Below are positions 3,565 through 43,909 of a stretch of DNA of 43,909 bases, in pieces. Made by a program: the position numbers and the translations under genes. The number at the start of each line of letters is the position of its first letter. Positions within the stretch are counted from its first letter, which is position 1. Source of the stretch: Prevotella sp. (GTDB lineage: Bacteria; Bacteroidota; Bacteroidia; Bacteroidales; Bacteroidaceae); NCBI GenBank assembly GCA_017615355.1, contig JAGAAJ010000132.1, positions 1-43,909 on the forward strand, in the 5' to 3' direction. The notes beneath the pieces were generated by a model. The model was not told the DNA's origin and did no database searches. It saw only the letters and a list, made by a program, of their open reading frames with translations.

Positions 3565-5613
3565 ATGATTGACAGGGCGACAGTTGACAAGATTCTAGAT
3601 GCGGCGCGTATCGTCGACGTCGTGGGTGATTTTGTGTCACTCCGTAAGAGCGGCGTGAACTACAAGGGCTTGTGCCCCTTCCACGACGACCGCAACCCAT
3701 CGTTCATGGTGTCGCCCTCGAAGAATATCTGCCACTGTTTCGTCTGCGGTAAGGGTGGTACGCCTGCCGGCTTCCTTATGGAGCACGAGCAGATGACCTA
3801 TCCCGAGGCCCTGCGCTGGCTGGCCAGGAAATACAATATCGAGATTGTTGAGAAGGAGCTGACCGACGAGGAACGTGCCGCACAGAGTGAAAGAGAGTCG
3901 ATGTTCATCGTCAACGAGTGGGCGAAGGACTGGTTTCACAACACGCTGAAAAACGACCCCGACGGCATCGCCATCGGAAAACAGTATTTCCGCAGCCGTG
4001 GCATCCGCGACGACATCATCGAGAAATTCCAGTTGGGTTATGCCCCGCAGAAGCGTGACGCCTTGGCACAGGCTGCCCAGAAGGCCGGCTACAAGGCAGA
4101 GTTCCTGGTGAAGACGGGACTTTGTTTTGAGAGAGGAGACAATGCCAACAGCCAAGAGCCATCAGCTAAAAGCCAATTGGTAGACCGCTACAGCGGCCGC
4201 GCCATCTTCCCCTGGCTGAACGTTAGCGGCAAGGTGGTGGCCTTCGGTGGCCGTGTGCTTGACTCAAGGACGAAGGGCGTGGCACAGAAGTACGTCAACT
4301 CGCCCGACAGCGACATCTATCACAAGGAGCGCGAGCTTTATGGCATCTTTCAGGCGAAGAAGGCCATTGTGAAGGAAGACCGCGTGTTCATGGTCGAGGG
4401 CTACACCGATGTCATCGCCATGCATCAGGCAGGCATTGAGAACGTGGTGGCCAACAGCGGCACGGCGCTCTCCGTCTTCCAGATACATCTGCTCCGTCGC
4501 TTCACGCAGAATATCACCCTGCTCTACGACGGCGACGAGGCTGGTATCCATGCTGCTATGCGTGGTACTGACATGCTGTTGGCTGAGGGTATGAATATCA
4601 AAGTGTTGCTGCTGCCTGACGGCGACGATCCCGACTCATTCGCACGTAAACACTCCATGGAGGAGCTGCGCAAGTATATCGAGGAGAATCAGACCGATTT
4701 CATTACCTTCAAGACACGTCTCACGGTGCAGAACATCGACGATCCCGTAAAGCGTAGTGAGGGTATTGGAGGCATTGTGCAAAGCATCAGCGTCATACCC
4801 GACCAGATACTTCGTTCCACCTATATCAGCGACCTTTCGCGTCGTATCGGCATCAAGGAGCAGACGCTGATTGCTGAGCTGAATAGGAAGGTGCGTAAGA
4901 ACCAGGAGGATAGAGAGAAGGAACGCGATCGTGCGGCCGCCCCGCCTGAAAATATCCCTGACGGTGGCATTGTTGAACAAGTTCAGCCTACACCACGTGT
5001 TGTACCCACGGTCACGCCCTCCTCACAAGGTTCAACCCAAGTGGAACTATTGCTGCTCCGTGAGGTGGTGCGTTATGGTGAGGAGATTATCTTCGACAAT
5101 GTGGAGACCGACAACGGTGGACATGCCAATATCTGTGTGGCGCAGTATATCGACCTCGACCTGAGTCAAGACGGCCTGCACCTGTCGCAGCCGCTCTACC
5201 AACAGATGCTCAGCGAGGCTGTGGCACATTGCGGCGAGCCGGGCTTTAAGGCAATGGACTATTTCTGCGCACACCGCGACCCGCAAATCAGTCAGCTGGC
5301 CATTCGTCTGTCCTTGGACCGCCATCAGTTGGCTGGACGTTTCAAGATTGACGAAGGTGAAGAAGAAAAAAAGGAGGAGGAGAAAGAAAGACTACACCAG
5401 GACAGGATTGCCCGTCTGCGCTTGCGTGTACAGCATCTCATCATGGATTATCGCCTGCACATCATCGACCAGCGCTTGAAGATGCTTCAGCAACAGTTGC
5501 GTCAGGCCGGTGCCGACTTGCAGCAAACCATGCAACTATTGAAAGAACATAAGGAAACCAAAGAGATTCGCGACATGCTGGCCAAACGGCTCGGTAGCGA
5601 TCTCGTTGTTTAA
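3565..5613 (+). CDS. dnaG: DNA primase DnaG
   Basis: Synthesises the RNA primers for DNA replication together with the DnaB helicase. The N-terminus carries the CHC2 zinc finger (CPFH followed by CHCFVCGKGG), then the catalytic core and Toprim domain (VFMVEGYTDVIAMHQAG and LLYDGDEAG, with the metal-binding Glu and Asp residues). A charged linker leads to a C-terminal helical region expected to contact DnaB. About 682 residues from the ATG at 3565, which has an AGGAG sequence upstream; the frame extends to 3541 without a better start. Odd feature: a low-complexity stretch NSQEPSAKSQL (4144-4182, about residues 195-206) sits where the family normally continues directly to the D-R-F/Y-x-x-R core motif. 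It is encoded by AGCCAA/AGCTAAAAGCC-like DNA words and looks like an in-frame repeat insertion. Ten bases separate it from queD. Confidence 0.96.
   Translation: MIDRATVDKILDAARIVDVVGDFVSLRKSGVNYKGLCPFHDDRNPSFMVSPSKNICHCFVCGKGGTPAGFLMEHEQMTYPEALRWLARKYNIEIVEKELTDEERAAQSERESMFIVNEWAKDWFHNTLKNDPDGIAIGKQYFRSRGIRDDIIEKFQLGYAPQKRDALAQAAQKAGYKAEFLVKTGLCFERGDNANSQEPSAKSQLVDRYSGRAIFPWLNVSGKVVAFGGRVLDSRTKGVAQKYVNSPDSDIYHKERELYGIFQAKKAIVKEDRVFMVEGYTDVIAMHQAGIENVVANSGTALSVFQIHLLRRFTQNITLLYDGDEAGIHAAMRGTDMLLAEGMNIKVLLLPDGDDPDSFARKHSMEELRKYIEENQTDFITFKTRLTVQNIDDPVKRSEGIGGIVQSISVIPDQILRSTYISDLSRRIGIKEQTLIAELNRKVRKNQEDREKERDRAAAPPENIPDGGIVEQVQPTPRVVPTVTPSSQGSTQVELLLLREVVRYGEEIIFDNVETDNGGHANICVAQYIDLDLSQDGLHLSQPLYQQMLSEAVAHCGEPGFKAMDYFCAHRDPQISQLAIRLSLDRHQLAGRFKIDEGEEEKKEEEKERLHQDRIARLRLRVQHLIMDYRLHIIDQRLKMLQQQLRQAGADLQQTMQLLKEHKETKEIRDMLAKRLGSDLVV
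4141..4182 (+). repeat. Low-complexity AGCCAAGAGCC/AGCTAAAAGCC insertion in dnaG
   Basis: Short imperfect tandem words encode NSQEPSAKSQL just before the conserved DRYSGR segment of primase. I see no family counterpart for the peptide. It belongs to the same class of in-frame word-like insertions as those in queE, prmC, cysS, terC, the helicase and mutS2. Confidence 0.5.
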
Positions 5614-5970: not shown

Positions 5971-6624
5971 ATGAGCTATCGCGTAAACAATATCTTCTAC
6001 TCGCTACAGGGCGAGGGCTGCAACACAGGACGTGCTGCGGTGTTCGTGCGCTTTGCCGGTTGCAATCTGCGTTGTCCCTTCTGCGACACCGAGTTTGATA
6101 CCTTTACCGAGATGACCGCCGAGGAGATTCTTGCAAAGGTGTCCTCGTCCCACCTCTCAAAGGCTACGGGTAGGCGCCTCAGCGGGAATCCTCTCACCTC
6201 TCACCTCCCACTTGTCGTCCTCACCGGTGGCGAGCCTACGCTGCAGGTGGATGAGGCTTTCGTCGACCAGCTGCATAGTGCTGGCTATGAGGTGGCGATG
6301 GAGAGCAACGGCACCCGCCCTGCTCCTGCCAACCTCGACTGGCTGGCGGTGTCGCCGAAAGACTGTGGAAAGTGGAAGGTGGAAAGTGGAAAGAGATTGC
6401 CAGACGAAATCAAGGTGGTGTTTGATGAACATACCACCGAAAAACTATCCTCCTTCCACTTTCCACTTTCTACCTTCCACCGTCCTCTCCTTTTCCTCCA
6501 ACCCTGCGACACAGGCGACGCCCAACGTAATAGGGCCATCATAAAGGCCTGCGTGGATTATATCAAGCAGCACCCGCAGTGGCGCCTCTCCCTCCAGACT
6601 CACAAGCTCATCGGTATAGAGTAA
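5971..6624 (+). CDS. queE: 7-carboxy-7-deazaguanine synthase QueE with repeat-derived insertions
   Basis: Radical SAM enzyme that contracts 6-carboxytetrahydropterin to 7-carboxy-7-deazaguanine in queuosine synthesis. Visible motifs are YSLQGEG near the N-terminus, the 4Fe-4S ligand set C-x3-C-x2-C in GCNLRCPFCDTEFD, VVLTGGEPTLQ, and the C-terminal FLQPCDTGD block. The ATG at 5971 is preferred over TTG at 5968. Three stretches do not look like QueE: a Ser/His-rich segment before VVLTGGEP (about 6150-6212), KWKVESGK (6366-6393) and SSFHFPLSTFHRP (6446-6484). Each is encoded by repeat words also seen elsewhere in the window, and the last two are near-perfect reverse complements of each other. 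The frame remains open and all core motifs are intact, so the enzyme is probably functional. Confidence 0.92.
   Translation: MSYRVNNIFYSLQGEGCNTGRAAVFVRFAGCNLRCPFCDTEFDTFTEMTAEEILAKVSSSHLSKATGRRLSGNPLTSHLPLVVLTGGEPTLQVDEAFVDQLHSAGYEVAMESNGTRPAPANLDWLAVSPKDCGKWKVESGKRLPDEIKVVFDEHTTEKLSSFHFPLSTFHRPLLFLQPCDTGDAQRNRAIIKACVDYIKQHPQWRLSLQTHKLIGIE
6181..6212 (+). repeat. CACCTCTCACCTCCC word repeat inside queE
   Basis: The words CTCACCTC/TCACCTCCC encode LTSHLP just before the conserved VVLTGGEP. The same words fill the queE-pld spacer at about 6634-6658. In the helicase gene they appear in reverse complement at about 30355-30375 and 30781-30800. Confidence 0.6.
6366..6480. repeat. Inverted pair of GGAAAGTGGAAAG repeats inside queE
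   Basis: The left arm at 6366-6393 is built of GGAAAGTGGAAGGTGGAAAG-type words. The right arm at 6452-6480 is close to its reverse complement (CCTTCCACTTTCCACTTTC). The 58-bp spacer encodes the family-typical LPDEIKVVFDE, so the arms flank a conserved strand. Related words occur in terC (24773-24806). Confidence 0.7.
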
Positions 6625-6631: not shown

Positions 6632-6659
6632 TTCCCACCTCACACCTCTCACCTCCTAT
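6632..6659 (+). repeat. CACCTC/CACCTCTCACCTCC words in the queE-pld spacer
   Basis: This short spacer is made of the same words found in frame inside queE and the helicase gene. It leaves no purine-rich ribosome-binding site before the ATG at 6661. Confidence 0.5.
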
Positions 6660-6660: not shown

Positions 6661-8091
6661 ATGAGCGTCCTTGGCATACTCTACTGGCTATCGCGAATCA
6701 TCGCTATCGGAGCGATCATTCACGTCATGCTGGACAATCGCCAGCCGGCGAAGACGATGGCGTGGGCGCTCATCATCTATTTCCTGCCCATCTTTGGCGT
6801 CATCGCCTACATCTTCTTCGGTGTCAACCGTCGCAAGGAACGCTTCATCAGCAGTCGTTCTATGGACATGCTGACGAAACGCTCGATGCTGGAGTTTGTG
6901 GAGCAGCGGCATACCGACATCCCCGTGGCGTATGAGAGCACCATCAACCTCTTCTCGCGACAGAGTTCCTCGATGCCGTTCATCAACCGTCGCACAGACA
7001 TCCTGACCGACGGCTATGAGTTCTTCCCCATGCTGCTGCGCGACATCGCCGCCGCCAAAAGCCATATCCACATCGACATGTATATCTTCGAGGACGACGC
7101 CCTCGGCCTGTTGGTCAGCGATGCCCTCATTGCCAAGGCCCGTCAGGGTGTGGAGGTGCGCATCATCTACGACGGCGTGGGCTGTTTGAAGGTGAAGAAA
7201 CGTTTCTGGGAGCGGATGCGAGAAGAGGGCATCGATGCCGAGCCGTTCATGCCTGTGCATTTCCCGCGTTTCACCAGCCGCGTCAACTACCGCAACCACC
7301 GCAAGATTATCGTCATCGATGGCAGCGTGGGCTATATCGGCGGCATCAACATCGCCCTGCGCTATGTGAAGGGGATGAAGAGAAAGAGGAAAGAGGAAGG
7401 AGGAAAGTGGCGCGACACGATGCTTCGCATAGAGGGCGGTGCCGTCAACGGCCTGCAGCAGACGTTCCTCCTGGACTGGTACTTCGTAGACCGTACGCTG
7501 CTCTCCGACCGCAAATACTATACGAAACCAACCGACGGCGGCGGTCTGATGCAGACGGTGACCAGCGGCCCTGTGGGCAAATACCCTGAGATCATGCAGG
7601 GCTATCTGAACATCATCATGTCGGCACGCCGCTACATCTATTTTGAGACGCCCTATTTCCTGCCGCCCGATGCCCTGCTCATGGCCATGAAGACGGCCGC
7701 TGCCTCGGGTGTCGACGTGCGCCTTCTGGTGCCCCGCGACAACGATGCCTACCTAGTAGACTGGGCCAGCCGCAGCTATCTGCGCGAGGCCAGCGAGGCG
7801 GGCATCACGGTGAGCCTCTACGAAGGAGCGTTCCTGCACTCCAAGCTGATGGTGTGCGACGATGCGGTCTGCACCTGTGGCTCCACGAACCTTGACTTCC
7901 GCTCCTTTGAAAACAACTTCGAGGCCAACACCTTCATCTACGACGAAGACGTGGCCCGCCGCATGTGTGCCGTCTTCCTCGACGACGAGCGCCAGGCCGT
8001 AGCCTTTACCTCGCTGCCCGACCGTGTCTCGCCCTCCTTCCTCCAGCGGGTATGGGATTCCCTCACACGCCTCTTCTCGCCCTTGCTGTAA
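6661..8091 (+). CDS. Cardiolipin synthase-type phospholipase D family protein
   Basis: Likely cardiolipin synthase, which transfers a phosphatidyl group between phospholipids at the inner membrane. Two N-terminal hydrophobic helices (about residues 1-22 and 36-56) match the PLDc_N membrane anchor. They are followed by two PLD catalytic domains, each with an HKD motif: HRKIIVIDG (about residues 213-221) and HSKLMVCDD with GSTNLD downstream. The length of 476 residues is normal. A Lys/Arg/Glu-rich stretch, KRKRKEEGGKW (about 7378-7410), sits between the first HKD block and the conserved W-R-D segment. The family often has a short KYG-like loop there, so this may be a small repeat insertion. The start follows queE by 36 bp of repeat words. 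Confidence 0.9.
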   Translation: MSVLGILYWLSRIIAIGAIIHVMLDNRQPAKTMAWALIIYFLPIFGVIAYIFFGVNRRKERFISSRSMDMLTKRSMLEFVEQRHTDIPVAYESTINLFSRQSSSMPFINRRTDILTDGYEFFPMLLRDIAAAKSHIHIDMYIFEDDALGLLVSDALIAKARQGVEVRIIYDGVGCLKVKKRFWERMREEGIDAEPFMPVHFPRFTSRVNYRNHRKIIVIDGSVGYIGGINIALRYVKGMKRKRKEEGGKWRDTMLRIEGGAVNGLQQTFLLDWYFVDRTLLSDRKYYTKPTDGGGLMQTVTSGPVGKYPEIMQGYLNIIMSARRYIYFETPYFLPPDALLMAMKTAAASGVDVRLLVPRDNDAYLVDWASRSYLREASEAGITVSLYEGAFLHSKLMVCDDAVCTCGSTNLDFRSFENNFEANTFIYDEDVARRMCAVFLDDERQAVAFTSLPDRVSPSFLQRVWDSLTRLFSPLL

Positions 8092-10181: not shown

Positions 10182-13100
10182 ATGAAAAAAACATTTGCCA
10201 TATTCGTGCTAACCCTACTTATGAGTATGCTTGGAGCAAAGGGGTTTGCCTATGATGCCAAGATTGACGGTATCTATTACAACTTTTCAGGAACTAACGC
10301 GACAGTTACTTGTCGTTATAATAATGCCTACGATAACAGGAATGCTTATTCTGGTAATGTTGTTATTCCTGAGTCCGTCACATACAATGGAGCGACTTAC
10401 ACCGTAACGAGCATCAGCAGCTATGCGTTTAATGGATGCTCTGGCCTGACAAGTGTCACCATTTCGAACTCAGTAACGAGCATCGGTGAATATGCGTTCT
10501 ATGGTTGCTCCGGCCTGACAAGCATCACCATACCTTACTCCGTGACGAGCATCGGTGAATATGCGTTCTATGATTGCTTCGGCCTGACAAGCGTGAATGT
10601 ATCTGTTTCTGACAAATCTGCTTTCTGTAATAATTCTGTTGTGGGTTTAATTGCTTCATATATTAATAAGCCAGTCCATTTAATTGATGAAAATGGAAAA
10701 GAGATAACAGAATATGTAATTCCTGATGATGTAACGAGCATCGGAGACCGTGCGTTCTATAACTGCTCCGGCCTGACAAGCATCACCATACCTTACTCCG
10801 TGACGAGCATTGGTGAATATGCGTTCTTTGGTTGCTCCAGCCTGACAAGCGTGAATGTATCTGTTACTGACAAATCTGCTTTCTGTAATAATTCTGTTGT
10901 GGGTTTAATTGCTTCATATATTAAAAAGTCAGTCCATTTAATTGATGAAAATGGAAATGAGATAACAGAATATGTAATTCCTGATGATGTAACGAGCATA
11001 GGAAACGGTGCGTTTTATCGTTGCTCCAGCCTGACAAGCATCACCATTCCAAACTCAGTAACGAGCATCGGCTATGATGCGTTCTCTGATTGCTCCGACC
11101 TGAACTTTGTCACGATTCCAAATAGCGTGACGAGCATAGGAAGCAATGCGTTCTATGGAACATCATTGAAAACGTTTATTATTGGTTCGGGGGTATTGAG
11201 TATTGGATCAAATGCTTTTTCAACTCGCCCTGTCAAGACTATTTGGTTAACCAACACCCCACCTCAAAATTATAAGAGTGCCGAGGGAACTGTCAACTAT
11301 GTTGCCAACAATCTATATAGTGGCCTTAGCAATTTGAAAGAATACAAATTTCTCAGTTCTATGTTTGATGTGGATGGCGTGAAATATGTTCCAGTAAGTC
11401 CTTCTGATCGCACTTGCGATGCTATTGACTGTGCGTACGACGAGTCAACTAAAGAAGTGAATATCAACGCTTCAGTGTCATACAAAGGGATTGCAATGAA
11501 TGTACTGAACGTGATGCCCTATTCATTCTGCGGTAACAATTATCTACAGAAAGTCAGTCTCGATGTTGCTGGGAATATAGGTAAGTATAATTTCTATGGC
11601 AACCCCAATCTTCAGACCGCTATCTTGGGTAAAAAAATCACTGGCATTGATGAATATGCTTTCAGTGGATGTACAAAACTAGAAGGTATCGTTGTGCCTG
11701 ACTCAGTTATGGCCATTAGCCAATATGCTTTTAGTGGTTGTTCAAGTATGAAATCAGTCAGTATAGGAAACAGCACAGAGTCGATAAAGAACAACGCCTT
11801 CCAAAACTGTTATGCCTTGCCCCGTATCACTATCCCCGGAACAGTTGGCTATATTGGTGATTATAGCTTTAGTGGATGTAGTAGTTTGAAAGAGGTTATT
11901 ATGGCCAATAGAAAGAATGGTCTAAAGACTATTTCTTTCGATGACTGGAATGTAAATACATACGCATCAATGGTAATAGATTTTGCTGTAGGCGACACTT
12001 TGTCATTCAATTATCAAGTGTCAAATGGAAGGCTAGGCATTTATACCTCTTACGAGAACGATTCATATTATGGTAATGGGACTTTTAAGAAAGATTTCTC
12101 GTACTCAGGAGAAGTAGTTCTTATTTTCGAGCCAAATTATTCTTCCTCAGCATCTTGTAGCATTACCGACGTGAAATTAACAAAAGGTGATATTCTGACA
12201 CTGGGCTCGAACGGCAAAAAACCACTCTTTGAAGATTGTCCGCTTGATTCTGTGTATATTGGTCGCAACATTTTGTACAATAAAATCAGCAATTATGGTT
12301 ACTCTCCTTTCTATCGCAACACATCGCTGCGTTCTGTGGTGATTACTGACAAGGAGGAAGAAATATCTGATAATGAGTTCTATGGTTGTACCAATCTGCA
12401 GAACGTAAAGATAGGCGATGGTGTGACGGCGATAGGCAACTGGGCTTTCTCTGGCTGTTCCGGCCTTCAGAACTTCGCTTTCGGTGCTCAGGTAAAGACC
12501 ATTGGCCAGGAGGCTTTCTCTGACTGTACTAACGTAATGGCCATCATCAGCAAAGCTCAGACACCACCCATCTGTGACTCACAGGCTTTGGACGACATCA
12601 ATAAATGGTCGTGTATGCTCAATGTTCCTACAGGATGCAAGGAGAGCTATGCGGCAGCCGACCAGTGGAAGGACTTCTTCTTTGTTGAGGAAGGTGAAGG
12701 CGGCGGTGACACTCCATTCAATCCCGATGACAAGAAATGTGCCAAGCCAACCATCAGTTACAATGAGGGCGAATTGTCGTTCGCTTCTGAAACCGAAGGA
12801 GTTGAGTTCGTTTCGACCATTTCCGATAGTGACGTTTCTTCATATCATACCAACAGCATACTATTAGGCGTTACCTATCACATCACCGTTTATGCCACCA
12901 AGCCAAGCTATGAAAACTCAGAGACGGCTACTGCCACACTCTGTTGGATAGACGTGGATCCAAGGACAGAGGGCATAGAGAATGGCATAGCCAGTATTCC
13001 CGCCCATGCTGTGCTGATACAAAGTAACGGCAACATCCTAGACATTCAGGGTTTAGAGGAAGGCACTCCTATCAGCATCTTTAACACCGCAGGCCAGCTA

Positions 13101-16337: not shown

Positions 16338-17114
16338 ATGATGAAGAGATATTATTTTGTGTTCTGCAAGGACAGCCTGATGTTGGAGGAACAGGCTGAC
16401 GGCACGTGCACGGTGCCCTGCTGCGAGGAGCCGCCCACGGAGGTGAAACCTTGGACGACGATGCTCAGCGTCACACCTATGGATGATGGCACGGAGGTGA
16501 GAACTTACGCCATCGACGCCATTCCCACATCACCATCCACCATCATCCCCTTGCGGCAGAGCTATTACAAGCTGCCTTGGGAGCTCTATCTGAAGGCGGG
16601 CAAGTGCGCCGAGCTGCTCTACTGGGACCAGAATACGAAGTTTTGCGGCGTCTGCGGCGCACCGATGAAGCTGCACACCGCCATCTCGAAACGCTGCGAG
16701 AACTGCGGCAAGGAGATATGGCCGCAGGTGGCGCCTGCCGTCATTGTGCGCATCACTCGTGGCGATGATGAGATTCTGATGGCCCGCGCCCGCAACTTCC
16801 GCGGCGACTTCTATGGCCTTATCGCCGGCTTCGTCGAGACGGGCGAGACGCTGGAGGAGGCTGTCGTTCGCGAGGTGAAGGAGGAAACGGGCCTGGAAGT
16901 AAAAAACATCCGCTACTTCGACTCGCAGCCCTGGCCCTATCCCAGCGGAGTGATGGTGGGCTTCACGGCTGACTATGCCGGAGGACAGATTCACATCCAG
17001 CACGAGGAGCTGCAGAACGTGGCGTGGTTTCATCGCGACCATCTGCCCAAACTGCCTGAGAAACTGTCTATCGCCCGCCGTCTGATTGACGACTGGCTGG
17101 GGGAAGAATGTTGA
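16338..17114 (+). CDS. nudC: NAD(H) pyrophosphatase / deNADding enzyme NudC
   Basis: Nudix hydrolase that cleaves NADH to NMNH and AMP and, in E. coli, removes NAD caps from RNA. The 258-residue sequence shows a four-Cys zinc ribbon (Cys103, 106, 120, 123), a complete Nudix box from Gly164 (GFVETGETLEEAVVREVKEE), and the NudC-specific SQPWPYPSG motif at residues 196-204. Two adjacent ATGs (16338, 16341) are possible starts. It has its own promoter and heads a run with prmC, recX and comF, separated from prmC by about 110 bp of tandem repeat words. Confidence 0.95.
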   Translation: MMKRYYFVFCKDSLMLEEQADGTCTVPCCEEPPTEVKPWTTMLSVTPMDDGTEVRTYAIDAIPTSPSTIIPLRQSYYKLPWELYLKAGKCAELLYWDQNTKFCGVCGAPMKLHTAISKRCENCGKEIWPQVAPAVIVRITRGDDEILMARARNFRGDFYGLIAGFVETGETLEEAVVREVKEETGLEVKNIRYFDSQPWPYPSGVMVGFTADYAGGQIHIQHEELQNVAWFHRDHLPKLPEKLSIARRLIDDWLGEEC

Positions 17115-17222
17115 GAGTTGAGAGTTTAGAGTTGAGAGACTTTTGTTGAAAGTTGAGAGACTTTTGTTGAGAGTTTAGAGTTTAGAGTTGAGGGTTGAGA
17201 GACTTTTGTTTAGAGTTGAGAG
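17111..17222 (+). repeat. TTGAGAGTT/TTTAGAGTTGAGAG word array between nudC and prmC
   Basis: Imperfect repeats of TTGAGAG, TTTAGAG and GAGACTTTTGTT fill the whole intergenic gap. The same family in the opposite orientation occurs at 21415-21446 before cysS and in frame inside cysS at 22752-22780. The spacers vary in length, so this is not a CRISPR array. Confidence 0.8.
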
Positions 17223-17225: not shown

Positions 17226-18068
17226 GTGACGTTCCGTGAATTCTGGCAACCGCTGACAACTATCTATCCAGAGGATGAGGCCCGCTGGATAGGCCGCTTC
17301 GTGTTCGAAGAGAAATACGCTTTGACTCACGCCGACCTGCTGATGGGCAAGGAAACGGACATCGAAGAAGGTGAATTGCGGGAGCTGCAACAGCGTCTGC
17401 TGACAGGCGAGCCTGTGCAGTATGTCCTTGGCGAGGCGCCCTTTGGCGACCGTCTGTTCAAGGTGTCGCCTGCCGTGCTCATCCCCCGGCCTGAGACGCT
17501 GTGGCTCTGTCAAGGCATTGACCATCAACCCTCCACCCTCCACCATCCACCATCAACCATCCTCGACATCGGCACGGGCAGCGGCTGCATCGCCGTCACC
17601 ATCGCCCTCAATGCTCCGGCTACTCACGTCACCGCTTGGGACATCAGCGATGAGGCGCTGGCCATCGCCCGTGCCAATGCGGAGCGACTGCAGGCCGACG
17701 TGACCTTCGAGCAGCAGGATGCCCTCAACCCTCCCGATGATACCCGTCGCTGGGACGTTATCGTGAGTAATCCGCCCTATATCTGCGAGCAGGAGAAGGC
17801 GGCGATGGAGCACAATGTGCTCGATTTCGAACCTCACCTGGCGCTCTTCGTCCCGAATGACGATCCGCTGCGCTTCTACCGCGCCATCGGAAAGTATGCC
17901 GTGAAGGCCCTGCGCCCTGCAGGCCGCCTCTACTTCGAGATCAACCCCCTTTATGCAGAAGAGTTGTCGGAAATGCTGCAGGCGCAGGGCTTTGATGAAG
18001 TCCGCATCTGTCAAGACGACAACCAAAAAGACCGATACATCGTAGCATGGAAACAAAGAAACCAATGA
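17226..18068 (+). CDS. prmC: Peptide chain release factor N5-glutamine methyltransferase PrmC
   Basis: Methylates the GGQ glutamine of release factors RF1/RF2 using S-adenosylmethionine. Motifs: the N-terminal helical domain ending in GEPVQYVLGEAPF, LIPRPETLWL, the SAM-binding DIGTGSGCIA (residues 114-123), and catalytic NPPY (182-185). The start is a GTG, since no in-frame ATG precedes the conserved N-terminus. Between RPETLWL and DIGTGSG the family has only a few residues. Here about 13 extra residues (DHQPSTLHHPPST) are encoded by CCATCAACC/CCACCATC words, an apparent in-frame repeat insertion. The 3' end overlaps recX by 22 bp, indicating co-translation. Confidence 0.94.
   Translation: MTFREFWQPLTTIYPEDEARWIGRFVFEEKYALTHADLLMGKETDIEEGELRELQQRLLTGEPVQYVLGEAPFGDRLFKVSPAVLIPRPETLWLCQGIDHQPSTLHHPPSTILDIGTGSGCIAVTIALNAPATHVTAWDISDEALAIARANAERLQADVTFEQQDALNPPDDTRRWDVIVSNPPYICEQEKAAMEHNVLDFEPHLALFVPNDDPLRFYRAIGKYAVKALRPAGRLYFEINPLYAEELSEMLQAQGFDEVRICQDDNQKDRYIVAWKQRNQ
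17519..17563 (+). repeat. CCATCAACCCTCCACC word insertion inside prmC
   Basis: Tandem imperfect words (ACCATCAACC, CTCCACC, ACCATCC) encode DHQPSTLHHPPST directly before the SAM-binding strand. The reading frame is kept and the flanking conserved motifs are intact. Confidence 0.7.
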
Positions 18069-19211: not shown

Positions 19212-19260
19212 GCCGTTTTCGGGGCTTTGCCTATCGTTTTTTTTGCTTTTCCCAGAAAAA

Positions 19261-19317
19261 TCCCAAGGCCTGGGAAAAAAGTCCCACGGCCTGGGACAAA
19301 AGTCCCAAGGCTTGGGA
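19261..19317. repeat. Three tandem palindromes TCCCAAGGCCTGGGA
   Basis: Units at 19261-19275, 19281-19297 and 19302-19317 each form a perfect or near-perfect palindrome (TCCCAAGGCCTGGGA, GTCCCACGGCCTGGGAC, TCCCAAGGCTTGGGA), separated by A-rich linkers at a period of about 20 bp. The last runs into TTTTTC, so it could end comF transcription. The tandem arrangement is unlike a simple terminator. Confidence 0.8.
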
Positions 19318-19334
19318 TTTTTCTCGCTTATTCG

Positions 19335-19426: not shown

Positions 19427-19460
19427 CACCCAAAGAATCTCACAAAAGAAAGGAAACAAC

Positions 19461-21384: not shown

Positions 21385-21446
21385 CGAAAACGAATACGAA
21401 AACGAAAGGAAACGTCTCTCAACACTAAACACTCAACTCTCAACAA
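21385..21446 (+). repeat. AACGAAAACGAATACG and CTCAACACTCAACTCTC words before cysS
   Basis: The gap between proC and cysS holds imperfect AACGAAAACG repeats, then CTCTCAACACTAAACACTCAACTCTCAAC-type words. The latter are the reverse complement of the TTGAGAG family at 17111-17222. Confidence 0.7.
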
Positions 21447-21450: not shown

Positions 21451-22950
21451 ATGGAATCAAGACTTGTCATCTACAATACACTGACACGACAGAAAGAACG
21501 CTTTGAGCCGCTGCACGCCCCCAACGTGGGCATGTATGTCTGCGGCCCCACCGTCTACGGCGACCCGCATCTGGGCCACGCCCGTCCTGCCATCACTTTC
21601 GATATTCTCTTACGCTACTTGAAGCACTTGGGCTACAAGGTGCGCTATGTGCGTAACATCACCGACGTGGGCCACTTGGAGCACGACGCCGACGAGGGCG
21701 AGGACAAGATTGCCAAGAAGGCCCGCCTGGAGCAGCTGGAGCCGATGGAGATAGCGCAATACTACACCCGCCGCTATCATCAGGCTATGGACTCGATGGG
21801 CGTGCTGCGTCCCAGCATCGAGCCCTGCGCCACCGGTCATATCATCGAGCAGCAGCAGCTGGTGCAGCAGATTCTCGACAATGGCTTTGCCTACGAGAGC
21901 AACGGCAGCATCTACTTCGACATTGAGGCTTACAACAAGCAATATCAGTACGGCATCCTCAGCGGACGCTCTTTGGAGAACGTGAAGGACGCCAGCCGCG
22001 AGTTGGACGGGGTGGGGGAGAAACGCCATCAGGCTGACTTCGCCCTGTGGAAGAAGGCTCAGCCCGAGCACATCATGCGCTGGCCTTCGCCTTGGAGCGA
22101 CGGCTTCCCTGGCTGGCATTGCGAGTGCACCGCAATGGGCCGCAAGTACCTCGGCGAGGAGTTCGATATTCACGGCGGCGGTATGGACCTCGTCTTCCCT
22201 CACCATGAGTGCGAGATTGCTCAGGCGCAGGCCGCTATGGGGCATCAGGCCGTGAAGTATTGGATGCACAACAACATGATCACCATCAACGGGCAGAAGA
22301 TGGGTAAGTCGCTCGGCAACTTCATCACCTTGGAGCAGTTCTTTACGGGAAAGCATGAGCTGCTGACAAAGCCCTACTCGCCCATGACCATCCGCTTCTT
22401 CATCCTCTCTGCCCATTACCGCGGCACCGTCGACTTCAGCGACGAGGCACTGCAGGCCGCTGAGAAAGGCTTGGAGAAACTGACCAACGCCATCGCCGAC
22501 CTCGAGCGCATTGCGGTTTCCCCGCAATGTGACGCCGAAACGGAGAAGGTGGTCAAGTCCCTCCGCAACCGCTGCTACGACGCCATGAACGACGACCTGG
22601 CCACGCCGCAGGTTATCAGCATCCTCTTCGAGGCTGCCACCGTCGTCAACCGTCTCGTCGATCACAAGGCCACCATCTGCGCCGAATGCCTGAAGGAGCT
22701 GAAAGAGGTGATGCACCTCTTCGCCGAGGACATCCTCGGACTGCAAAGTCACTCAACTCTCAACTCTCAACACTCAACAGACCGCGAGGAGGCTTTTGGC
22801 AAGGTCGTTGACATGGTGCTCGACCTCCGCGCCAAGGCCAAGGCCGCCAAGGACTGGGCCACCAGTGACCAGATTCGCGACGCCCTCGCCCAGGCCGGCT
22901 TCGAGGTGAAGGACACCAAGGACGGCGTCACTTGGAAGCTGAATGTTTGA
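21451..22950 (+). CDS. cysS: Cysteinyl-tRNA synthetase CysS with a repeat-derived insertion
   Basis: Class I aminoacyl-tRNA synthetase charging tRNA-Cys. Motifs in order: zinc ligand Cys31 in [18 protein letters not shown] with the HIGH-type HLGH at 40-43, the [12 protein letters not shown] and [10 protein letters not shown] zinc-site blocks, and KMGKS (residues 283-287). A DALR helical domain follows. At about residues 432-445 the sequence [11 protein letters not shown] interrupts the C-terminal region; it is encoded by CACTCAACTCTCAACTCTCAAC words identical in type to the upstream spacer. The remainder ([33 protein letters not shown]) is family-typical, so the insertion lies in a linker. 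Confidence 0.96.
22750..22780 (+). repeat. CACTCAACTCTCAACTC word insertion inside cysS
   Basis: Words of seven to eight bases (ACTCAACT, CTCAACT, CTCAACAC) encode [10 protein letters not shown]. They match the intergenic words at 21415-21446, only 1.3 kb upstream. Confidence 0.75.
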
Positions 22951-22957: not shown

Positions 22958-23008
22958 AATGTTCCCAATCCCCAAACGACCAAACGCCCAATCCCCCAAA
23001 CGACCAAC
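22958..23008 (+). repeat. CCCAATCCCCAAACGACC word repeat before the TonB-like gene
   Basis: Two imperfect copies of CCCAATCCCC(C)AAACGACCAA(A/C) fill the spacer between cysS and the next ATG at 23010. Confidence 0.65.
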
Positions 23009-24337: not shown

Positions 24338-25372
24338 TTATTGCTGCGCTTTCTCCTTCTTCTTTGATACCAGCACGGACAAGCCCATCGACAGCACCAG
24401 CAAGCCGAAGATGATGGCCAGCGACAGCGGCGTGGGCACCTCGATGTGGGGCATGTTCAGGTCGAGGCCCAGCCACGAGCCAATCTGGTTGATGTACTCG
24501 TTCATGGCCAGCAGCATCTTGATGCCTACGAAGATGAGGATGATGCCCAGACCGTATTTCAGATAGGTGAAATACTTGGCCACGGCGGCGAGGGCGAAGT
24601 AAAGGGCTCGCAGACCGAGGATGGCGAAGATATTCGACGTCAGCACGATGAATGGGTCGCGGCTCACGGAGAACACGGCGGGGATGCTATCCACGGCGAA
24701 GGCCACATCGGTAGTCTCGATGACTATCAGCGCGATGAACAATGGCGTGGCCACACGACGCAGTTTCTTTCCTCCTTCCTCTTTCCTCTTTCCACTTTCC
24801 TCCAAGACGAAGAACTTGTCCTCGTGCATCTTGTCGGTGACGGGGAAGAATCGCTTAAAGAGCTTGACGATGAAGTTGTTGCCTGGGTCGGTCTGTGCCT
24901 CCTCGTCGTGGGTGAACATCTTTGAGCCGGTGTAGAGCAGGAACAGGCCGAAGAGGCCAAGTATCCACTCGAAGCGCTCCACCATAGCGGCGCCGGCGAA
25001 GATAAACACGCTGCGCAGCACCAACGCGCCGAAGATGCCCCAGAAGAGCACCTCGTGCTGGTATTTCCTCTTGATGGCGAAATAGGAGAAGAGCATGAGG
25101 AAGACGAAGAGGTTGTCCATCGACAGCGACTTCTCTATCAAGTAGCCCGCCAGAAACTCCATCGCCTTCTCATGCGGCTCTTCTGGATAGAGGAAGTAGA
25201 TGCCGGCGCAGAACACGAGCGACACGCCAATCCACACGGCGGTCATCTTCAGCGCCTCCTTTACACCCACCTCGTGCTGGCCTTTCTTGCCGAACATCTT
25301 CAGGTCGGCAATCAGCATGATAAACACCAGTACGTAGAACAGGATCCACGCCCAAAGAGGAAGAATATCCAT
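24338..25372 (-). CDS. TerC/Alx-family integral membrane protein
   Basis: A 344-residue TerC-family protein with about nine hydrophobic helices. The family signatures are SLSMDNLFVFLMLFSYF and ATPLFIALIVIETTDVAFAVDSIPAVFSV; the Asp residues in the helices are the likely metal-contact sites. TerC/Alx proteins are associated with manganese export and metal handling. A Lys/Glu-rich segment (ESGKRKEEGGKKLRR, about 24764-24810) lies in the cytosolic loop before the ATPLFIALI helix, encoded by CCTCTTTCCTCTTTCCACTTTCC words, another in-frame repeat. It is the last gene of proB-proA-argF'-terC, three bases after argF'. Confidence 0.88.
   Translation of the reverse strand: MDILPLWAWILFYVLVFIMLIADLKMFGKKGQHEVGVKEALKMTAVWIGVSLVFCAGIYFLYPEEPHEKAMEFLAGYLIEKSLSMDNLFVFLMLFSYFAIKRKYQHEVLFWGIFGALVLRSVFIFAGAAMVERFEWILGLFGLFLLYTGSKMFTHDEEAQTDPGNNFIVKLFKRFFPVTDKMHEDKFFVLEESGKRKEEGGKKLRRVATPLFIALIVIETTDVAFAVDSIPAVFSVSRDPFIVLTSNIFAILGLRALYFALAAVAKYFTYLKYGLGIILIFVGIKMLLAMNEYINQIGSWLGLDLNMPHIEVPTPLSLAIIFGLLVLSMGLSVLVSKKKEKAQQ
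24773..24806 (-). repeat. CCTTCCTCTTTCCTCTTTCCACTTTCC words inside terC
   Basis: Read on the gene strand these are GGAAAGTGGAAAGAGGAAAG words, the same family as the inverted pair in queE. They encode GKRKEEGGKK in a cytosolic loop. Confidence 0.65.
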
Positions 25373-26338: not shown

Positions 26339-26383
26339 ATTCTTTGAAATTTGAACTTTATGATTATTGCCGGGCGGCAGCAA

Positions 26384-26417
26384 ATTCTTCATTCTTCATT
26401 TTTCACTCTTCATTCTA
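26384..26417 (-). repeat. ATTCTTCATTCTTCATTTTTC words between proA and argF'
   Basis: Tandem TTCTTCATTC words fill this spacer. The same words appear in frame inside mutS2 at 41970-42003. Confidence 0.7.
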
Positions 26418-28385: not shown

Positions 28386-28417
28386 CAAAATTACGTTTTT
28401 TCTGCGATACGTGCAAA
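28386..28417 (-). promoter_or_regulatory. Bacteroidetes-type promoter for proB-proA-argF'-terC
   Basis: On the - strand TTTG (28417-28414) is followed after exactly 20 bp by TAATTTTG (28393-28386), matching -33/-7. The ATG of proB is 20 bp downstream. Most of the element lies within the last codons of the helicase gene. Confidence 0.75.
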
Positions 28418-31400
28418 TTTCTTGGCAGAAAAGGGCATCGCGTAGTCGCTGATGAGCTGGCGGAAGAGTGGCACATGGTTGAGAATATCCGGCTGTCCTA
28501 CGATTATCATTTGTTTGCGTGCGCGCGTGAGGGCTACGTTCAGCTTGCGGTCGATAGCTGTGCCATTGGCATCAGTGAAGGTCGTGGCGGTGAGGAAGTC
28601 GAGCTGATAGCGATGACTGACGCCGAGGGCATAGATGATGACATCGCGCTGGCTTCCTTGGAAACGTTCCACCGTGTCGATGGTGATGTCCGAGAGAGGG
28701 AAAGTGAGAGTAGAGGGGTGGGAAATCGCCTGACGGATGAGGGCTATCTGCCGACGGTAGGGTACGATGACGCCTACAGTCTTCGTAGGGTCGAAGTGGT
28801 CTTTCGTGAAGCGGTAGATGCGGCGCAGTAGGTCGGCCACGAGCTGGGCCTCAGCATCGGGTTCATTAGTCTTATGAGACTCACAAGCCTCATTGGCGAG
28901 GAATAGCACACGACGAGTCTTCAACAGCTCGTCGAGGGCATCCTCAGCAGGCAAATCATAGTCGATGGCCGTCTCCTGCTGATGAGGCAGGGGCACAGCA
29001 TGCAACTGCTCTTCCTGATAAAAATGCTGCAAGGGGAAGGATGCTACGTCGGGGTGCATACGGCCATGTGAGTGCAGCACGCCTGTAAACTGCGTGCGCC
29101 CTTGGCGATGTTCCCAACGCAGGAAACGTTCAAAGAGACTCTGCCGACAATCTTCCAGTCCGATATCGCGCAGACACGGCTCTGTGACCACGCTCTGCTC
29201 GGGTGGCTGTTGCACTACGGCGGGCAACTGCTTGTAATCACCCACGAGGACGAAGCGTTCCACCGATGCGCTGCTCAGCAAACCGATTAGCGACGGCTCA
29301 AGTATCTGCGAGGCCTCGTCGATGATGGCCAGCGAGAAATGTTTCAGCTGCAGTATCCAAGGTTGTGCCTGCAGCATTGATGTGGTGCTGACGATGATGG
29401 GCGTGCGGCTGATGAGTTGGCGGGCATCGTCGAGGTGGCGTGTGTCAGCCAGCGCCGTGTCTAAAAGGTGGTCGTGGAAGCGTGCGTCGCACGAGGCGGC
29501 CTTGCCTATGCGCAGAAAGGAGCCTCCCCCTGCCCCTCCCAAGGAGGGGAGAGTGGTCAACATGGCGCAGATTTCGTCTACGGCGCGATTGGTGTAGGCG
29601 GCAAGGAGAACGTTGCTGACAGGTGAGGTCTGTAATTCTTCCTCCACCATGAATCTCAGCGCCATCGAGGTCTTGCCCGTTCCTGGCGGGCCGACCAGCA
29701 TGAAATAGTCACGGGCCTGTTTCACCTTCAGCAGCACGTCATCGTAGTCGGGATGATAGCTGCGTGAGAGTACCTGCGACGTGTCGGCCTCAGGAGCACG
29801 CAGTCCTAAAAGCAGGTCCTTGCGGCGTTTGTCGGCGGTGACGAAGGCATAGAGCGCACGGATGTCGGCGCTGCAGGTGTCGCTTCCGCCGTGCTCGATG
29901 GCCCAGCGACGTCCTTCGCCAGCGTTGAAAAGGGCTTCGGGCTGACTGTCGTTGAGCACAACGACGGCCTCCTCGCCGTCCAGTCGCTGCAAGGTGCCCT
30001 TAAAGAGAATGCTGCGGCATACGTCGGGCTCGTCAGTAAAGCTGTAGAGGTAGACCAAATCGCCTGGGCGGAAGTTCAAAGGCCTCACCATCTGCTCCTC
30101 TCCAAAGGAAGAGGGGTGTGAATTGTACTGAAGACTGAGTGTGGTTGCTCCCCTCTCATTCTGGAGAGGGGTAGGGGGTGAGGTTGCTAAGATGATATTT
30201 CCCGTCTCTATCTTCTCCTGCAGCGACATCTGCCACAAGTCGGCAGTACAGCCGCCTGAGTGGTGCAGGCTCGTCTCGCTGCTACCCACCTTCTGTGCCC
30301 GCTGCTCACGATAGACAAACGTGAGCATACGTTCCACGTAGGCCCGCTCTATGGAGGTGAGATGTGAGAGGTTGGAGGTGAGCAGATCTATTTGGGGCTG
30401 GATATAGTGGTGGAAGAAACCGTCGCGTGCGACACCCTGATAGATGACGTCGGCATTGAGCAATGGCAGAATGCGTTGGAAACCGTCGCGTGCGATGAGC
30501 AATTCGGTAGCAACAATCTGATTGCGCAGTTTCAAGGCTTCGCGCAAAAGGGTGCGATAGTAGTTGACGGTGAGCAGTCCCTGTGCGGCGGGGTAGCGTG
30601 AGTAGAGCAGACGGATGTCTACCTGTCTGTCGCTGAGTCCGAAATTATAGCGCAGCACACCGTAATACAACAGCAGCTGGACGTAGTGACTCTCCAACTG
30701 CAGACCGTGACTGTCGTGACTTTGGTACTCAATCTTCCTGTTGCGGCCCGACTTCTGCTCAACGAGGATAGTGGTCAGGGGTGAAGGGTGGGAGGTGAGT
30801 GATGTGGTCATCAAGTCGACACGGCCCTGTAATCCCAAGCGCTCGCAAACGAAAGAGGCCTCGAGCAGGGTTTCGTTACGCTTGAGGTTCAACACATCCA
30901 CAGCTCCTCTGATATTCTGCATCTGCTCTGCGGCCTGCTCGCGGAAGGTCTCAGGGTTGAAGTCTTCGCAGGCACAGAAACATAGGGCCTGTTCGCGGAA
31001 ACTTCGTTGCAGCGAGTCGGCCAGCGTGGCCTCGCCGCCGCGACTGATGACATCGTCGAGGGCGGTGCCAGCGAAGTTACCCAGCAGCGTAGCTTGTGAG
31101 TTTGGCTTTGCCTTCAGTCTGTTGACGGTGTACAGTAGCGTGTGGTGGCCGTAATCGGTAAAGCAAGATGCTAATGATGAGATGTCGATGAGGAAGTCGG
31201 GTTCCACGATGACGACACCAGGAATGATGATGTGGCTTTCTCCGTTCTCCTTGGGAGATGGCTCCGGCGAGAGGGCGTTGTCTAGCAGGTTGAGTTGCAT
31301 CCCAGGACGGAGCACTTTCTGCAGATAGGCGAAGTCGCGTCCCTGCGTGGTATCGCGATAGTCGATGGTGATGGGGCCGTCGGAGGTGTCGGCCAGGATG

Positions 31401-36654: not shown

Positions 36655-36706
36655 CGTAATAACGAAATAACGTTATCACGTGATTACGAAAAAAATGAAA
36701 TAACGA
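36655..36706 (+). repeat. AATAACGTTATCACGTGATTACG words between gldK and gldL
   Basis: Repeated TAACGAAATAACG and GTTATCACGTGATTACG words. GTTATCACGTAATTCCG, almost the same word, occurs inside mutS2 at 42980-43005. Confidence 0.65.
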
Positions 36707-41404: not shown

Positions 41405-43909
41405 TTACTCGATATCTACGACGGTGATACCAGCACCGCCAAACTGCACGTGCTCATCTCGAAAATGGCTGACGTTGGGCACGGTGGCCAGATACTGGCG
41501 GATGAGCTGGCGCAGGATGCCCGTGCCCGTGCCGTGCAGGATGCGCACACGGCTCATGCCCACGAGGATGGCATCGTCGATGAAATAGGTGACGGCCTGG
41601 ATGGCCTCGTCGCCACGCATGCCACGCACGTCTAAGTCCTGATGGAAGTTGGCCTTGCGCGAGTCGATGGCGGCACGCGTGCCTGAGCCTAGGGTGGCGT
41701 AGCTGCCCGCTATCTGGGCATTGCGCTCCTCCGTTTTCGTCTGCTCCTTCACAGGTGCCTTCGCGGGCTCCAGTCGGTCCAGCCGCATCTTCGTGCGCAT
41801 ACTGCCGAAGACAATCACGGCCTGCTTGCCTTCAATCTTCTCTATCGTGCCAATGCTGGTGAGACCCTTGATACGCACGGTGGAGCCTTCTTGTAGGGGT
41901 GAGGGGTGAGTGGATAGTGAAGAATTACCTTCCGAAGTTCCCGCAGGTGTAGGCTTGGCGGTAGCCGATTCTTCATTCTTCATTCTTAATTCTTCATTTT
42001 TTCTTCTCTCCTCCTTCCTCTTCTTCCTCTCCTCTATCTGCCGCATCTTGCGCTCTATCAGCTCGTCGTTCTGACGGGTGTCGATGCCTTCCACCTCCTG
42101 CTTGAACTGCTCCATCTCCTCGCGGATGCGGCGTGTGGCCTCCTTCTCGGCCTGCTGCTCGCGAATCTCGCGGATGGCGTTCTCAATCCTCTTGTTGGCA
42201 GAGGCCAGCAGCTCCTCGGCCTGCTCCTTCGCACGCCGCAGGATGGCCTTGCGCTCCTGCTCTATCTCCTCGATGCTGGCTTCCAGATGCTCGCCTCTCG
42301 CCTCCAGCCGTTTCTCATGCTGGTGGATGGTCTGACGCTTGCCTTCCCAGTAGCGCTTGTCGCGCACGATATCCTGCAGGTATTTGTCGCTCTGGATGTA
42401 TTCGCGGCCCACGATGTCGCTGGCGTCGTTGATCACCTCCTCGGGCAGGCCCGTCTTGCGGGCTATCTCGATGGCGAAGCTCGAGCCCGGCTGGCCGATG
42501 CTGAGCTGGAAGAGGGCGCGCATCTCACCCCGGTCGTAGAGCATTGCGCCGTTCACCACGCCTTCGTGGCCGTCGGCAAAGTGCTTCAGATTCTGGTAGT
42601 GGGTGGTGATGACGCCGAAGGCCTTCTTCTGCCAGAACTGCTTCAGCACCGCCTCGGCGATGGCGCCGCCGATGGTGGGCTCCGTGCCGCCGCCGAACTC
42701 GTCGATGAGCAGCAGCGTGTGCTCGTCGGCGTGGCGTATCATCTGCTTCATGTTCATCAGGTGCGAGGAGTAGGTCGACAGGTCGTCCTCGATGCTCTGC
42801 TCGTCGCCGATGTCGATCATCAGTTTAGTAAAGATGCCGCAGGTGGAGCGCTCGCTCATCGGCACGCTCAGGCCGCATTGCAGCATATACTGCAGCAGTC
42901 CCACCGTCTTCAGGCACACCGACTTGCCGCCCGCGTTCGGGCCGGAGATGATAAGGAGCCTACCGTTGTTTTCTTTTCTCGTTATATCGTTATCACGTAA
43001 TTCCGTTATAACGTCTAATTTTATATCCAGCGGCACCACCTTCTTCTCCTGCTTCGCCAGCGCGAGGGCCAGCAGCGGGTGCACGGCCTGTATCCAGTCG
43101 ACGTGCGGCTGTTCCCTTACCGCGGGCTCCACCGCCTTCGTCAGGTCGGCCAGCGAGGCCTTGGCGTGGATGAGGTCGATGACGCCGAGGAACTGGTAGG
43201 ACTCGAGAATGTCGCTGACGTAGGGGCGCACCTCGTCGCTGAACACGGTGAGGATGCGGATGATCTCGCGGCGCTCCTCGGCTTCCAGCTCGCGGATGCG
43301 GTTGTTGGCCTCCACCACCTCCGTCGGCTCGATGAACACCGTCTTGCCCGTAGCACTCTCGTCGTGCACGATGCCGCTGATGCGACGCTTCACGCTCGGC
43401 GACACGGGAATCATCAGTCGGCCGTCGCGCACCGTCGGCGCTGCGTCCTTGTCCACCAGGCCGTCGCGCTGGGCAGCGTGCAGGATCGTATATAAGGTAC
43501 GCGAGATGCTGCCCTCCGTCTTCTGCAGCTCGTGGCGGATGCCTGCCAGCGTCATCGTGGCGCCGTCCTTGATGCGTCCGTATTTGTCGATGATGCTGTC
43601 GATGCGCCGTATCATAGCGGGGAAGACAGGCACGTCATGTGCCAGCCGGGCCAGAGCAGGATAAGTCGCCTCATCCTCTCCACTCTCCTCTTTCCTCTCT
43701 CCTCCATTGAGATACTTCACAATGTTGGCGATGGTCTCCAGCGAGCGCCGCAGGTCGAAGAGCTCCTCCTCCTCGAAGTGGGTGTTCGCCATGCGGATGC
43801 GCGTCACAGCCTCGCGCACGTCGAAGAAATATTGCAAGGGGAAGTCGGTGGCCGTTTCCATCAGCTGTCGGAACTCATGCACCTGCATGAGGCGCTCCTG
43901 CACCTCTGC
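41405..43909 (-). CDS. mutS2: Endonuclease/ATPase MutS2 (5'-partial) with several repeat insertions
   Basis: MutS2-family ATPase with a C-terminal Smr nuclease, implicated in limiting recombination and in ribosome rescue. The ATPase has Walker A ISGPNAGGKSVCLKT, LLIDEFGGGTEP and TTHYQNLKHFA; then a long coiled coil; then a KOW-like region (GSTVRIKGLTSIGTIEKI); and the Smr domain with DLDVRGMRGDEA and RILHGTGTG. The N-terminal part runs off the right end; about 50 residues are probably missing. Inserted low-complexity stretches are NGGERKEESGEDE (about 43680-43710), RDNDITRKENNG (about 42965-43010), and RRKNEELRMKNEESATAKP with SSLSTHPSPLQEG (about 41885-42005), each encoded by repeat words. 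Confidence 0.94.
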   Translation of the reverse strand, partial: AEVQERLMQVHEFRQLMETATDFPLQYFFDVREAVTRIRMANTHFEEEELFDLRRSLETIANIVKYLNGGERKEESGEDEATYPALARLAHDVPVFPAMIRRIDSIIDKYGRIKDGATMTLAGIRHELQKTEGSISRTLYTILHAAQRDGLVDKDAAPTVRDGRLMIPVSPSVKRRISGIVHDESATGKTVFIEPTEVVEANNRIRELEAEERREIIRILTVFSDEVRPYVSDILESYQFLGVIDLIHAKASLADLTKAVEPAVREQPHVDWIQAVHPLLALALAKQEKKVVPLDIKLDVITELRDNDITRKENNGRLLIISGPNAGGKSVCLKTVGLLQYMLQCGLSVPMSERSTCGIFTKLMIDIGDEQSIEDDLSTYSSHLMNMKQMIRHADEHTLLLIDEFGGGTEPTIGGAIAEAVLKQFWQKKAFGVITTHYQNLKHFADGHEGVVNGAMLYDRGEMRALFQLSIGQPGSSFAIEIARKTGLPEEVINDASDIVGREYIQSDKYLQDIVRDKRYWEGKRQTIHQHEKRLEARGEHLEASIEEIEQERKAILRRAKEQAEELLASANKRIENAIREIREQQAEKEATRRIREEMEQFKQEVEGIDTRQNDELIERKMRQIEERKKRKEERRKNEELRMKNEESATAKPTPAGTSEGNSSLSTHPSPLQEGSTVRIKGLTSIGTIEKIEGKQAVIVFGSMRTKMRLDRLEPAKAPVKEQTKTEERNAQIAGSYATLGSGTRAAIDSRKANFHQDLDVRGMRGDEAIQAVTYFIDDAILVGMSRVRILHGTGTGILRQLIRQYLATVPNVSHFRDEHVQFGGAGITVVDIE
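41885..42005 (-). repeat. Composite word insertion inside mutS2 (linker before KOW/Smr)
   Basis: Words TGTAGGGGTGAGGGGTGAG (41890-41910) and ATTCTTCATTCTTAATTC (41970-42003) encode SSLSTHPSPLQ and NEELRMKNEE. The second set matches the proA-argF' spacer. Confidence 0.7.
42967..43017 (-). repeat. CGTTATCACGTAATTCCG words inside mutS2, just before Walker A
   Basis: CGTTATATCGTTATCACGTAATTCCGTTATAACG-type words encode about 12 residues (ELRDNDITRKEN) between a conserved DIKLD strand and LLIISGPNAGGKS. The word matches the gldK-gldL spacer. Confidence 0.65.
43672..43712 (-). repeat. CTCTCCACTCTCCTCTTTCCTC words inside mutS2
   Basis: Polypurine/polypyrimidine words encode GGERKEESGEDE between helices of the N-terminal region. 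They are similar to the terC insertion. Confidence 0.55.

Follow-up and report, generated by a model that had tools for sequence, protein, structure and literature searches.

The window, a stretch of 43,909 nucleotides from a Prevotella sp., is contig 71 of the source genome (G000; 3.25 Mb in 147 contigs, 89.7% complete) and carries, among others, dnaG, queE, cls, prmC, cysS, terC, a helicase gene and mutS2. By CysS, the closest named relatives of this genome are rumen Prevotella genomes (best 90% identity, with near-identical CysS records possibly missing from the set), and by MutS2 the closest relatives in the comparison are 86% identical; relatives were compared at the level of one genome per species. 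Host genes are named from Pfam/NCBIfam or solved-structure matches where available, and Mfd, XylB, CTP synthase, TolC-like and other names are readings of translations by eye. An earlier note had described short imperfect words in spacers and, in frame, in dnaG, queE, prmC, cysS, terC, the helicase gene and mutS2; all of them were found at the positions it gave, and a further in-frame array, absent from its list, lies in cls. The sites are the following.

4141..4180, plus strand: heptad arm of the CANNAGC type, in frame in dnaG, reading NANSQEPSAKSQL; read directly.
6185..6215, plus strand: CACCTCT arm in frame in queE; a lag-7 array, missing at the orthologous site of G097.
6365..6393, minus strand: purine arm, on the left, of two inverted heptad arms; in frame in queE, folding with its right-hand partner into a hairpin of z -6.1.
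6444..6485, plus strand: right (pyrimidine) arm, partner of 6365..6393, in queE; from the fold and relatives.
6632..6659, plus strand: CACCTCT arm in the queE-cls spacer; read directly; G097 and G059 have other words here.
7382..7405, minus strand: GAAAGAG arm lying in frame within cls, the phospholipase-D-like gene; lag-7 array and profile match.
17110..17222, minus strand: CAACTCT arms following one another in direct orientation, with AAAAGT at the joints, nudC-prmC spacer.
17521..17561, plus strand: ACCATCC arm in frame in prmC, reading DHQPSTLHHPPSTIL.
21385..21446, plus strand: a CAACTCT arm preceded by AACGAA hexads, in the spacer between proC and cysS; an 18-mer array occupies this place in G097.
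22752..22779, plus strand: CAACTCT arm in frame in a cysS loop (10-residue peptide).
22958..23008, no strand: CCCAATCCCCAAACGACC words in a spacer; 91-98% copies over ~43-54 bp at several places in G059.
24766..24802, plus strand: TCTTTCC arm in terC, in frame when read antisense (EESGKRKEEGGK).
26374..26416, plus strand: half element, GCGGCAGCAA stem and CATTCTT arm (the arm alone at 26384-26416), argF-proA spacer.
30354..30382, minus strand: a degenerate CACCTCT arm, read in frame as LLTSNLSHLTS in the helicase gene.
36655..36706, no strand: octad words (CGAAATAA and variants) in a spacer; read directly.
41957..42000, plus strand: stem remnant GGCGGTAGCCG and CATTCTT arm, antisense in frame in mutS2 (KNEELRMKNEESATAK).
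43676..43704, plus strand: CTCTCCA/CCTCTTT arm, antisense in frame in mutS2, GGERKEESG.

Other repeats lie nearby. The helicase gene (28391-31828) contains further in-frame hairpins that are REP-like by eye (TLPSLGGAGGGSF, LSPEPSPKENGE) and look, again by eye, like a different kind of sequence from the heptad words. The spacer before an aminotransferase gene holds three copies of a 21-bp unit, AAAAAGTCCCAAGGCCTGGGA (19256-19317); the spacer at 19323-19428 has many dispersed 74-92% matches in G092, G059 and G097 and is perhaps a conserved promoter region; and a large repeat-protein gene (10404-11103) has internal repeats of 69 and 258 bp, apparently coding repeats of the leucine-rich type. An Rfam search of the window gave no match at the gathering score.

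The words are organized mainly as tandem heptads. At a score of at least 12, the window contains 12 arrays at lag 7 against 0-1 at other lags from 4 to 15, apart from five at the harmonic lag 14; by eye, the exceptions are the octads at 36655-36706, the hexads at 21385-21407 and the mixed 7/8 spacing at 22958-23008. The same holds in 284,567 bases of the source genome that were unselected for arrays, where 21 period-7 arrays reach a score of at least 14, other periods between 4 and 24 give 0-5 (harmonics 14 and 21 excepted), and a trinucleotide-Markov control gives none at any of these periods, so that the words are commoner than composition predicts. An ATTCTTC 18-mer has 18 exact matches in the source genome and its reversed control none, so that words recur genome-wide; the lexicon of this genome includes CATTCTT, CACCTCT, CAACTCT, CCTCTTT, CACTTTC and others. 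Other periods prevail in some relatives: in G097, the nearest, 180 kb yielded 12 and 13 arrays of periods 9 and 18 against 9 of period 7, and a 400-kb sample of G117 yielded thirteen period-22 arrays against four of period 7.

Genes show little depletion of arrays: at a score of at least 13, 19 of 24 arrays in the unselected stretches lie inside predicted genes and 5 outside, compared with a predicted coding fraction of 80.6%, and 12 of 196 predicted genes hold at least one. Gene calls came from a simple custom gene finder that may miss genes. Of the 91 arrays in the full 651-kb sample, which is in part biased towards ATTCTTC, predicted genes contain 60, a few of these extending over the stop codon, and some of the 31 outside look like signal-peptide starts missed by the gene finder. 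The named isolates at L041 and L043 have heptad or octad arrays, none in genes predicted by the crude finder. At several sites (L098:18798-18965, L101:1428-1580 and L095:14730-14878), the hydrophobic core of a signal peptide (AAFFILHS...) seems to be made of heptad arms; the inverse arm lies ~100 bp upstream, on the far side of the start codon, and the GGTTATT word acts likewise at three sites of L098 (VIGYCLLVIG).

Many of the words are arms, ~30 bp long, of palindromes with a purine arm, a core and a pyrimidine arm, and some are single arms. When pairs are defined as arrays 10-200 bp apart, the purine arm comes first and the pyrimidine arm second in 15 of 20 pairs from 80 relatives fetched only for cysS (25% expected by chance; p=4e-6 with loci treated as unrelated), comprising 8/10 same-word and 7/10 different-word pairs. 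This polarity recurs in the source genome (16/19 same-word, 2/4 different-word), in G059 (6/7 and 1/2), in G097 (2/2) and in further loci chosen by the composite pattern described below (32/37 and 5/9). All six folded pairs or copies, four of which lie outside the modal form or word of the CATTCTT sub-family, form hairpins with z between -6.1 and -15.7. Between the two queE arms lie ~50 bp of gene sequence kept in relatives (DEIKVVFD), so not every pair is one inserted unit. The suggestion that unrelated word types stem from a single generating process is thus upheld in that they have a common architecture (period 7, ~30 bp, inverted pairs of fixed polarity); its corollary, that no one mobile sequence is involved, does not hold for the CATTCTT/CACTCTT family.

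That family, the best defined, consists of a heptad arm, GAATTTGCTRCCGC, a core, GCGGYAGCAAATTC and a second heptad arm, with a modal length of ~107 bp and with stem flanks TTTGCTRCCGC to the left and GCGGYAGCAAA to the right of the core. The 26 complete copies measure 84-191 bp, the commonest arm being 32 bp and the commonest cores 22 and 25 bp. Whole or half, the element occurs in genes as unrelated as those for chorismate synthase, RNase R, a U32 peptidase and beta-galactosidase. A U32 peptidase gene of the source genome (L084) and a glycoside hydrolase gene of G041 (L245) are 86% identical over 100 bp, and this homology covers the element only. Of three G056 copies, all with one core, one is inverted and matches the others at 92-93% over 134-138 bp; two of the three also agree in 15-18 bp of left flank. 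Because homology is confined to the element between unrelated hosts in two species, and because internal variants are common to different loci, this family is a discrete element dispersed as a unit. A composite pattern (up to 2 mismatches) matched 80 of 200 Prevotella genomes, the source genome among them, at most 55 times in any one genome, and its reversed control had none in any of the Prevotella genomes; a somewhat broader pattern allowing at most 1 mismatch found the source genome and one other among 295 genomes drawn from the order. The AAAAGTCTCTCAACTCTCAAC pattern is present in 21 of 200 Prevotella genomes. The CACCTCT pattern is present in 89 of 200, and its reversed control is frequent in some (G034, G047, G145 and a few more), which points to species-specific lexicons and weakens that control.

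Ordinary minisatellites would offer a simpler account, with seven-base slippage in unconstrained loops and spacers, each site being independent and none mobile. The ends of CATTCTT arrays argue otherwise: ATTCTTC opens 18 of 27, in 10 of the 18 directly after GCGG[CT]AGCAA, CATT closes 15 of 27, and their length is largely fixed at ~31 bp rather than variable. When observed pairs of arrays with common internal variants were compared with arrays placing their own variants at random, CATTCTT gave 26 pairs against 10.3 (p=0.0005) and CAACTCT, with a more partial excess, 35 against 22.9 (p=0.005); the cysS arm at 22752..22779 recurs identically, internal variant included, elsewhere in the source genome (contig C82, L091:1947). 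CACCTCT showed no such excess (14 against 12.3, p=0.32), so a local origin of its arms is less well excluded. Copy number, the trait of short tandem (STRR-type) simple repeats, does vary in one case: CATTCTT ends are largely fixed, yet one pair of relatives, L067 and L069, with flanks 95% identical, differs by 14 bp (two heptads) in an AACTATG array. This change and the variable character of the loops fit the minisatellite account, and an identical 31-bp arm, internal variant and stem at unrelated loci, the fixed inverted polarity and homology bounded by the element speak against it, leaving it largely refuted for the CATTCTT family and improbable overall. Slippage, one of the processes put forward earlier, thus explains the length change but cannot account for dispersal.

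The words are probably arms, or what remains of arms, belonging to a superfamily of short palindromic elements that have spread through Prevotella and are tolerated in frame in loops, much as Rickettsia palindromic elements (RPE) are. A classical MITE, whose arms would be terminal inverted repeats for a trans-acting transposase reading the heptad arrays, is compatible with this explanation and possible, if on balance doubtful. Terminal inverted repeats are present as in a MITE, and the inverted ends of the 26 copies, their high copy number and their genus-restricted spread agree with that description. No consistent target duplication was found in the 26 copies, however (7 have chance-like matches of 4-5 bp), the ends are not sharply conserved, and several words per genome would require several specificities. 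The sole transposase family sought, the IS200-type Y1_Tnp, is absent from the source genome as assembled (89.7% complete), by which mobility of REP/BIME type driven by a RAYT was likewise rejected.

Insertions within genes keep the reading frame. The core length is 1 mod 3 in 13/13 complete copies in predicted genes and in 9/13 outside them, so that in the latter either the gene finder missed genes or the cores were inherited. The in-gene peptides that were read use one frame and follow, with small changes, (E/K)LR(M/V)K(N/S)EEFATA, a variable turn and AxANSS(F/L)F(T/I)LH; the right arm in L090 has a different word from the left, and in one G056 copy that overlaps a predicted gene a stop falls within the left arm. 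In this common frame a perfect antisense arm would contain TGA. TTA stands at that codon in 18/24 antisense arms, 0/23 sense arms and 3/84 arms outside predicted genes (18/24, 1/23 and 13/84 by a looser motif count), where one of the 24 is a weak match with no clear arm, several of the counted arms share a gene or genome and so are not independent, and the 84 include many from short loci in which genes may be missed. The mutS2 arm (41968-41998) bears the same stop-removing variant, as TTAA. Recurrence of this TTA across species and words suggests a lineage of the element adapted to open reading frames; the recurrent TTA may also come from mutation bias, and location in an open reading frame by itself forces some stop removal.

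Chorismate synthase of the source genome matches the solved structure 5z9a over residues 3-265 and 303-381, and the 37 residues between, which do not match, stand where the 5z9a match is broken by four residues; this insert agrees with the earlier proposal that in-frame insertions are tolerated, probably in loops, and the sites are variable loops or linkers. Conserved Prevotella proteins bear low-complexity inserts, not domains. Some arrays sit at contig ends in the source genome, and assemblies may break at heptad arrays. An assembly artefact was rejected because elements are also present in G117, a single contig of 3.45 Mb, in which they lie mostly outside predicted genes with one arm in frame, and because in-gene copies keep frame in several genomes.

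The content of these sites turns over between relatives. The chorismate synthase loop, compared at 30 loci drawn from 141 genomes with a match, holds the palindrome in the source genome, an unrelated 9/18-base array in G097, half an element in G110 and a heptad-like peptide, PQTSNLKPQTSNLK, in L338, and the remaining loci have variable loops of other sequence. The queE-cls spacer has three different heptad words in G000, G097 and G059, and the same two queE loops in G092 hold a seemingly differently worded pair (the left arm read as DNA, the right as peptide). At the nudC-prmC spacer of G097, flanking matches leave ~42 bp, and many copies of the CAACTCT-run repeat occur elsewhere in that genome. 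The dnaG site has heptads in G000, in-frame REP-like hairpins in G059 (L159/L167) and only 7 bp in G116; the MutS2 linker differs in all 29 other aligned loci; and among 80 relatives the cysS loop carries detectable arrays of three words in L007, L010 and L021. Segments conserved in length and sequence across homologues, which would have told against insertion, were therefore not what cysS, queE, dnaG and mutS2 displayed against their relatives. Such differences in content at orthologous sites also count against regulatory hairpins, that is, terminators or translational controls selected for RNA structure, as do the many single arms and the location of 19 of the 24 unselected arrays inside predicted genes, a share like the coding fraction. 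The hairpins are strong, and some arms straddle apparent SusC/SusD-like start codons with the right arm as the signal-peptide core (by eye), but selection for RNA structure is, in our judgement, a very improbable general explanation.

Words also change around a single stem, which is found with CATTCTT, CACTCTT, ACTCTAC or CAACTCT-type arms; at L247:7637-7739 the stem is kept and both arms have switched to ACTCTAC. The left and right arms of a copy covary: in 19 copies, treated as unrelated, double-change cells numbered 26, compared with 13.1 in shuffles (p=0.004), and arm pairing was 85.6% against 82.0% (p=0.003). Arms are more similar within than between copies at p=0.027, mostly owing to G041, with no difference in G000, G059, G022 or G142. 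We propose that a recombination or copying activity would insert a unit or a single arm, that selection would retain insertions keeping frame in loops, and that seven-base slippage together with hairpin-templated copying could homogenize units within a copy; a new word would then be carried to both arms, and words would diverge between species while the stem is kept. A bolder version, which we regard as rather unlikely, is a coding palindrome with a conserved stem whose arms are wholly re-synthesised on both sides with a new word and whose ORF-adapted lineage adds in-frame loops; each species would then have its own lexicon, and that lineage would give core enzymes new protein loops.

New words might instead be written directly, by a telomerase-like or other templated enzyme that extends the 3′ ends of short DNA pieces with G-poor heptads, the pieces then being captured at breaks. 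The purine-core-pyrimidine polarity fits repeats on both 3′ ends, different-word pairs (7/10) included, and so does one main period with many words. Conservation of the stem while words change opposes such templated addition, and the reverse transcriptase domain RVT_1 is absent from both G000 and G101, which have the element; it occurs in all 10 other genomes looked at, with or without the element, including the 7 that lack a composite match. With the domain absent in two carriers and present in 7/7 non-carriers checked, no link between reverse transcriptase and the element emerges, by which reverse transcriptase was rejected as the mover, and we give templated addition very little credence.

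The reading preferred here, dispersed palindromes tolerated in frame, finds its closest counterpart in RPE. NCBIfam contains RPE models, and nine host proteins, searched against it to E 0.1, gave no hit to an RPE-named family; the comparison is one of behaviour. We know of no mover identified for RPE. RPE are short palindromes of ~150 bp that lie in frame in unrelated metabolic genes, with nearly half of the copies in open reading frames and a conserved peptide, according to part of the account in PMC10969869; a further account is given in part in PMC2635572. The Prevotella element is likewise palindromic (z -6 to -16) and in frame in unrelated conserved genes; it differs in its ~107-bp unit, in period-7 arms that carry different words in different species on a conserved stem, and in its gut Bacteroidales hosts. 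The contrast with Rickettsia palindromes drawn in the earlier note was too strong, since complete Prevotella copies are near-perfect palindromes.

Other known repeats resemble the element in part. The TAACTGA heptamers of Beggiatoaceae, cyanobacteria and some Bacteroidetes form dispersed arrays, mostly intergenic with some in genes, but consist of one word that, in the part of PMC4679880 concerned, is nearly always direct and in the main genome mostly just upstream of starts, whereas the Prevotella arrays have many words, inverted pairs and a location mostly inside genes. BrickBuilt of Porphyromonas gingivalis, a MITE holding tandem 23-bp repeats and described in a portion of PMC4596501 as always intergenic, also places tandem repeats in a Bacteroidales element; the Prevotella repeats are heptads and often in genes. 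PARCELs, also palindromic and coding, are believed to move inside genomes as well as from one to another, but they form tandem tracts of 25-residue repeats in open reading frames without assigned function, many of them membrane-targeted, as part of PMC2996958 relates, unlike the single inserts in housekeeping enzymes found here. PINSR of the Prevotella intermedia group, a lineage-restricted, high-copy, 188-bp repeat that the relevant part of PMC4755523 gives as intergenic, non-coding and without terminal inverted repeats, was rejected as identical because size, inverted arms and location differ. A literature search, with most subscription papers outside its coverage, found no report of these elements in Prevotella. 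Part of the account in PMC10969869 treats RPE-like coding palindromes as peculiar to Rickettsia and its kin; a genus-wide, multi-word version in gut bacteria would provide many natural insertions in known enzymes, making the movement of such DNA and its tolerance in proteins testable by strain comparison and enzyme assays.
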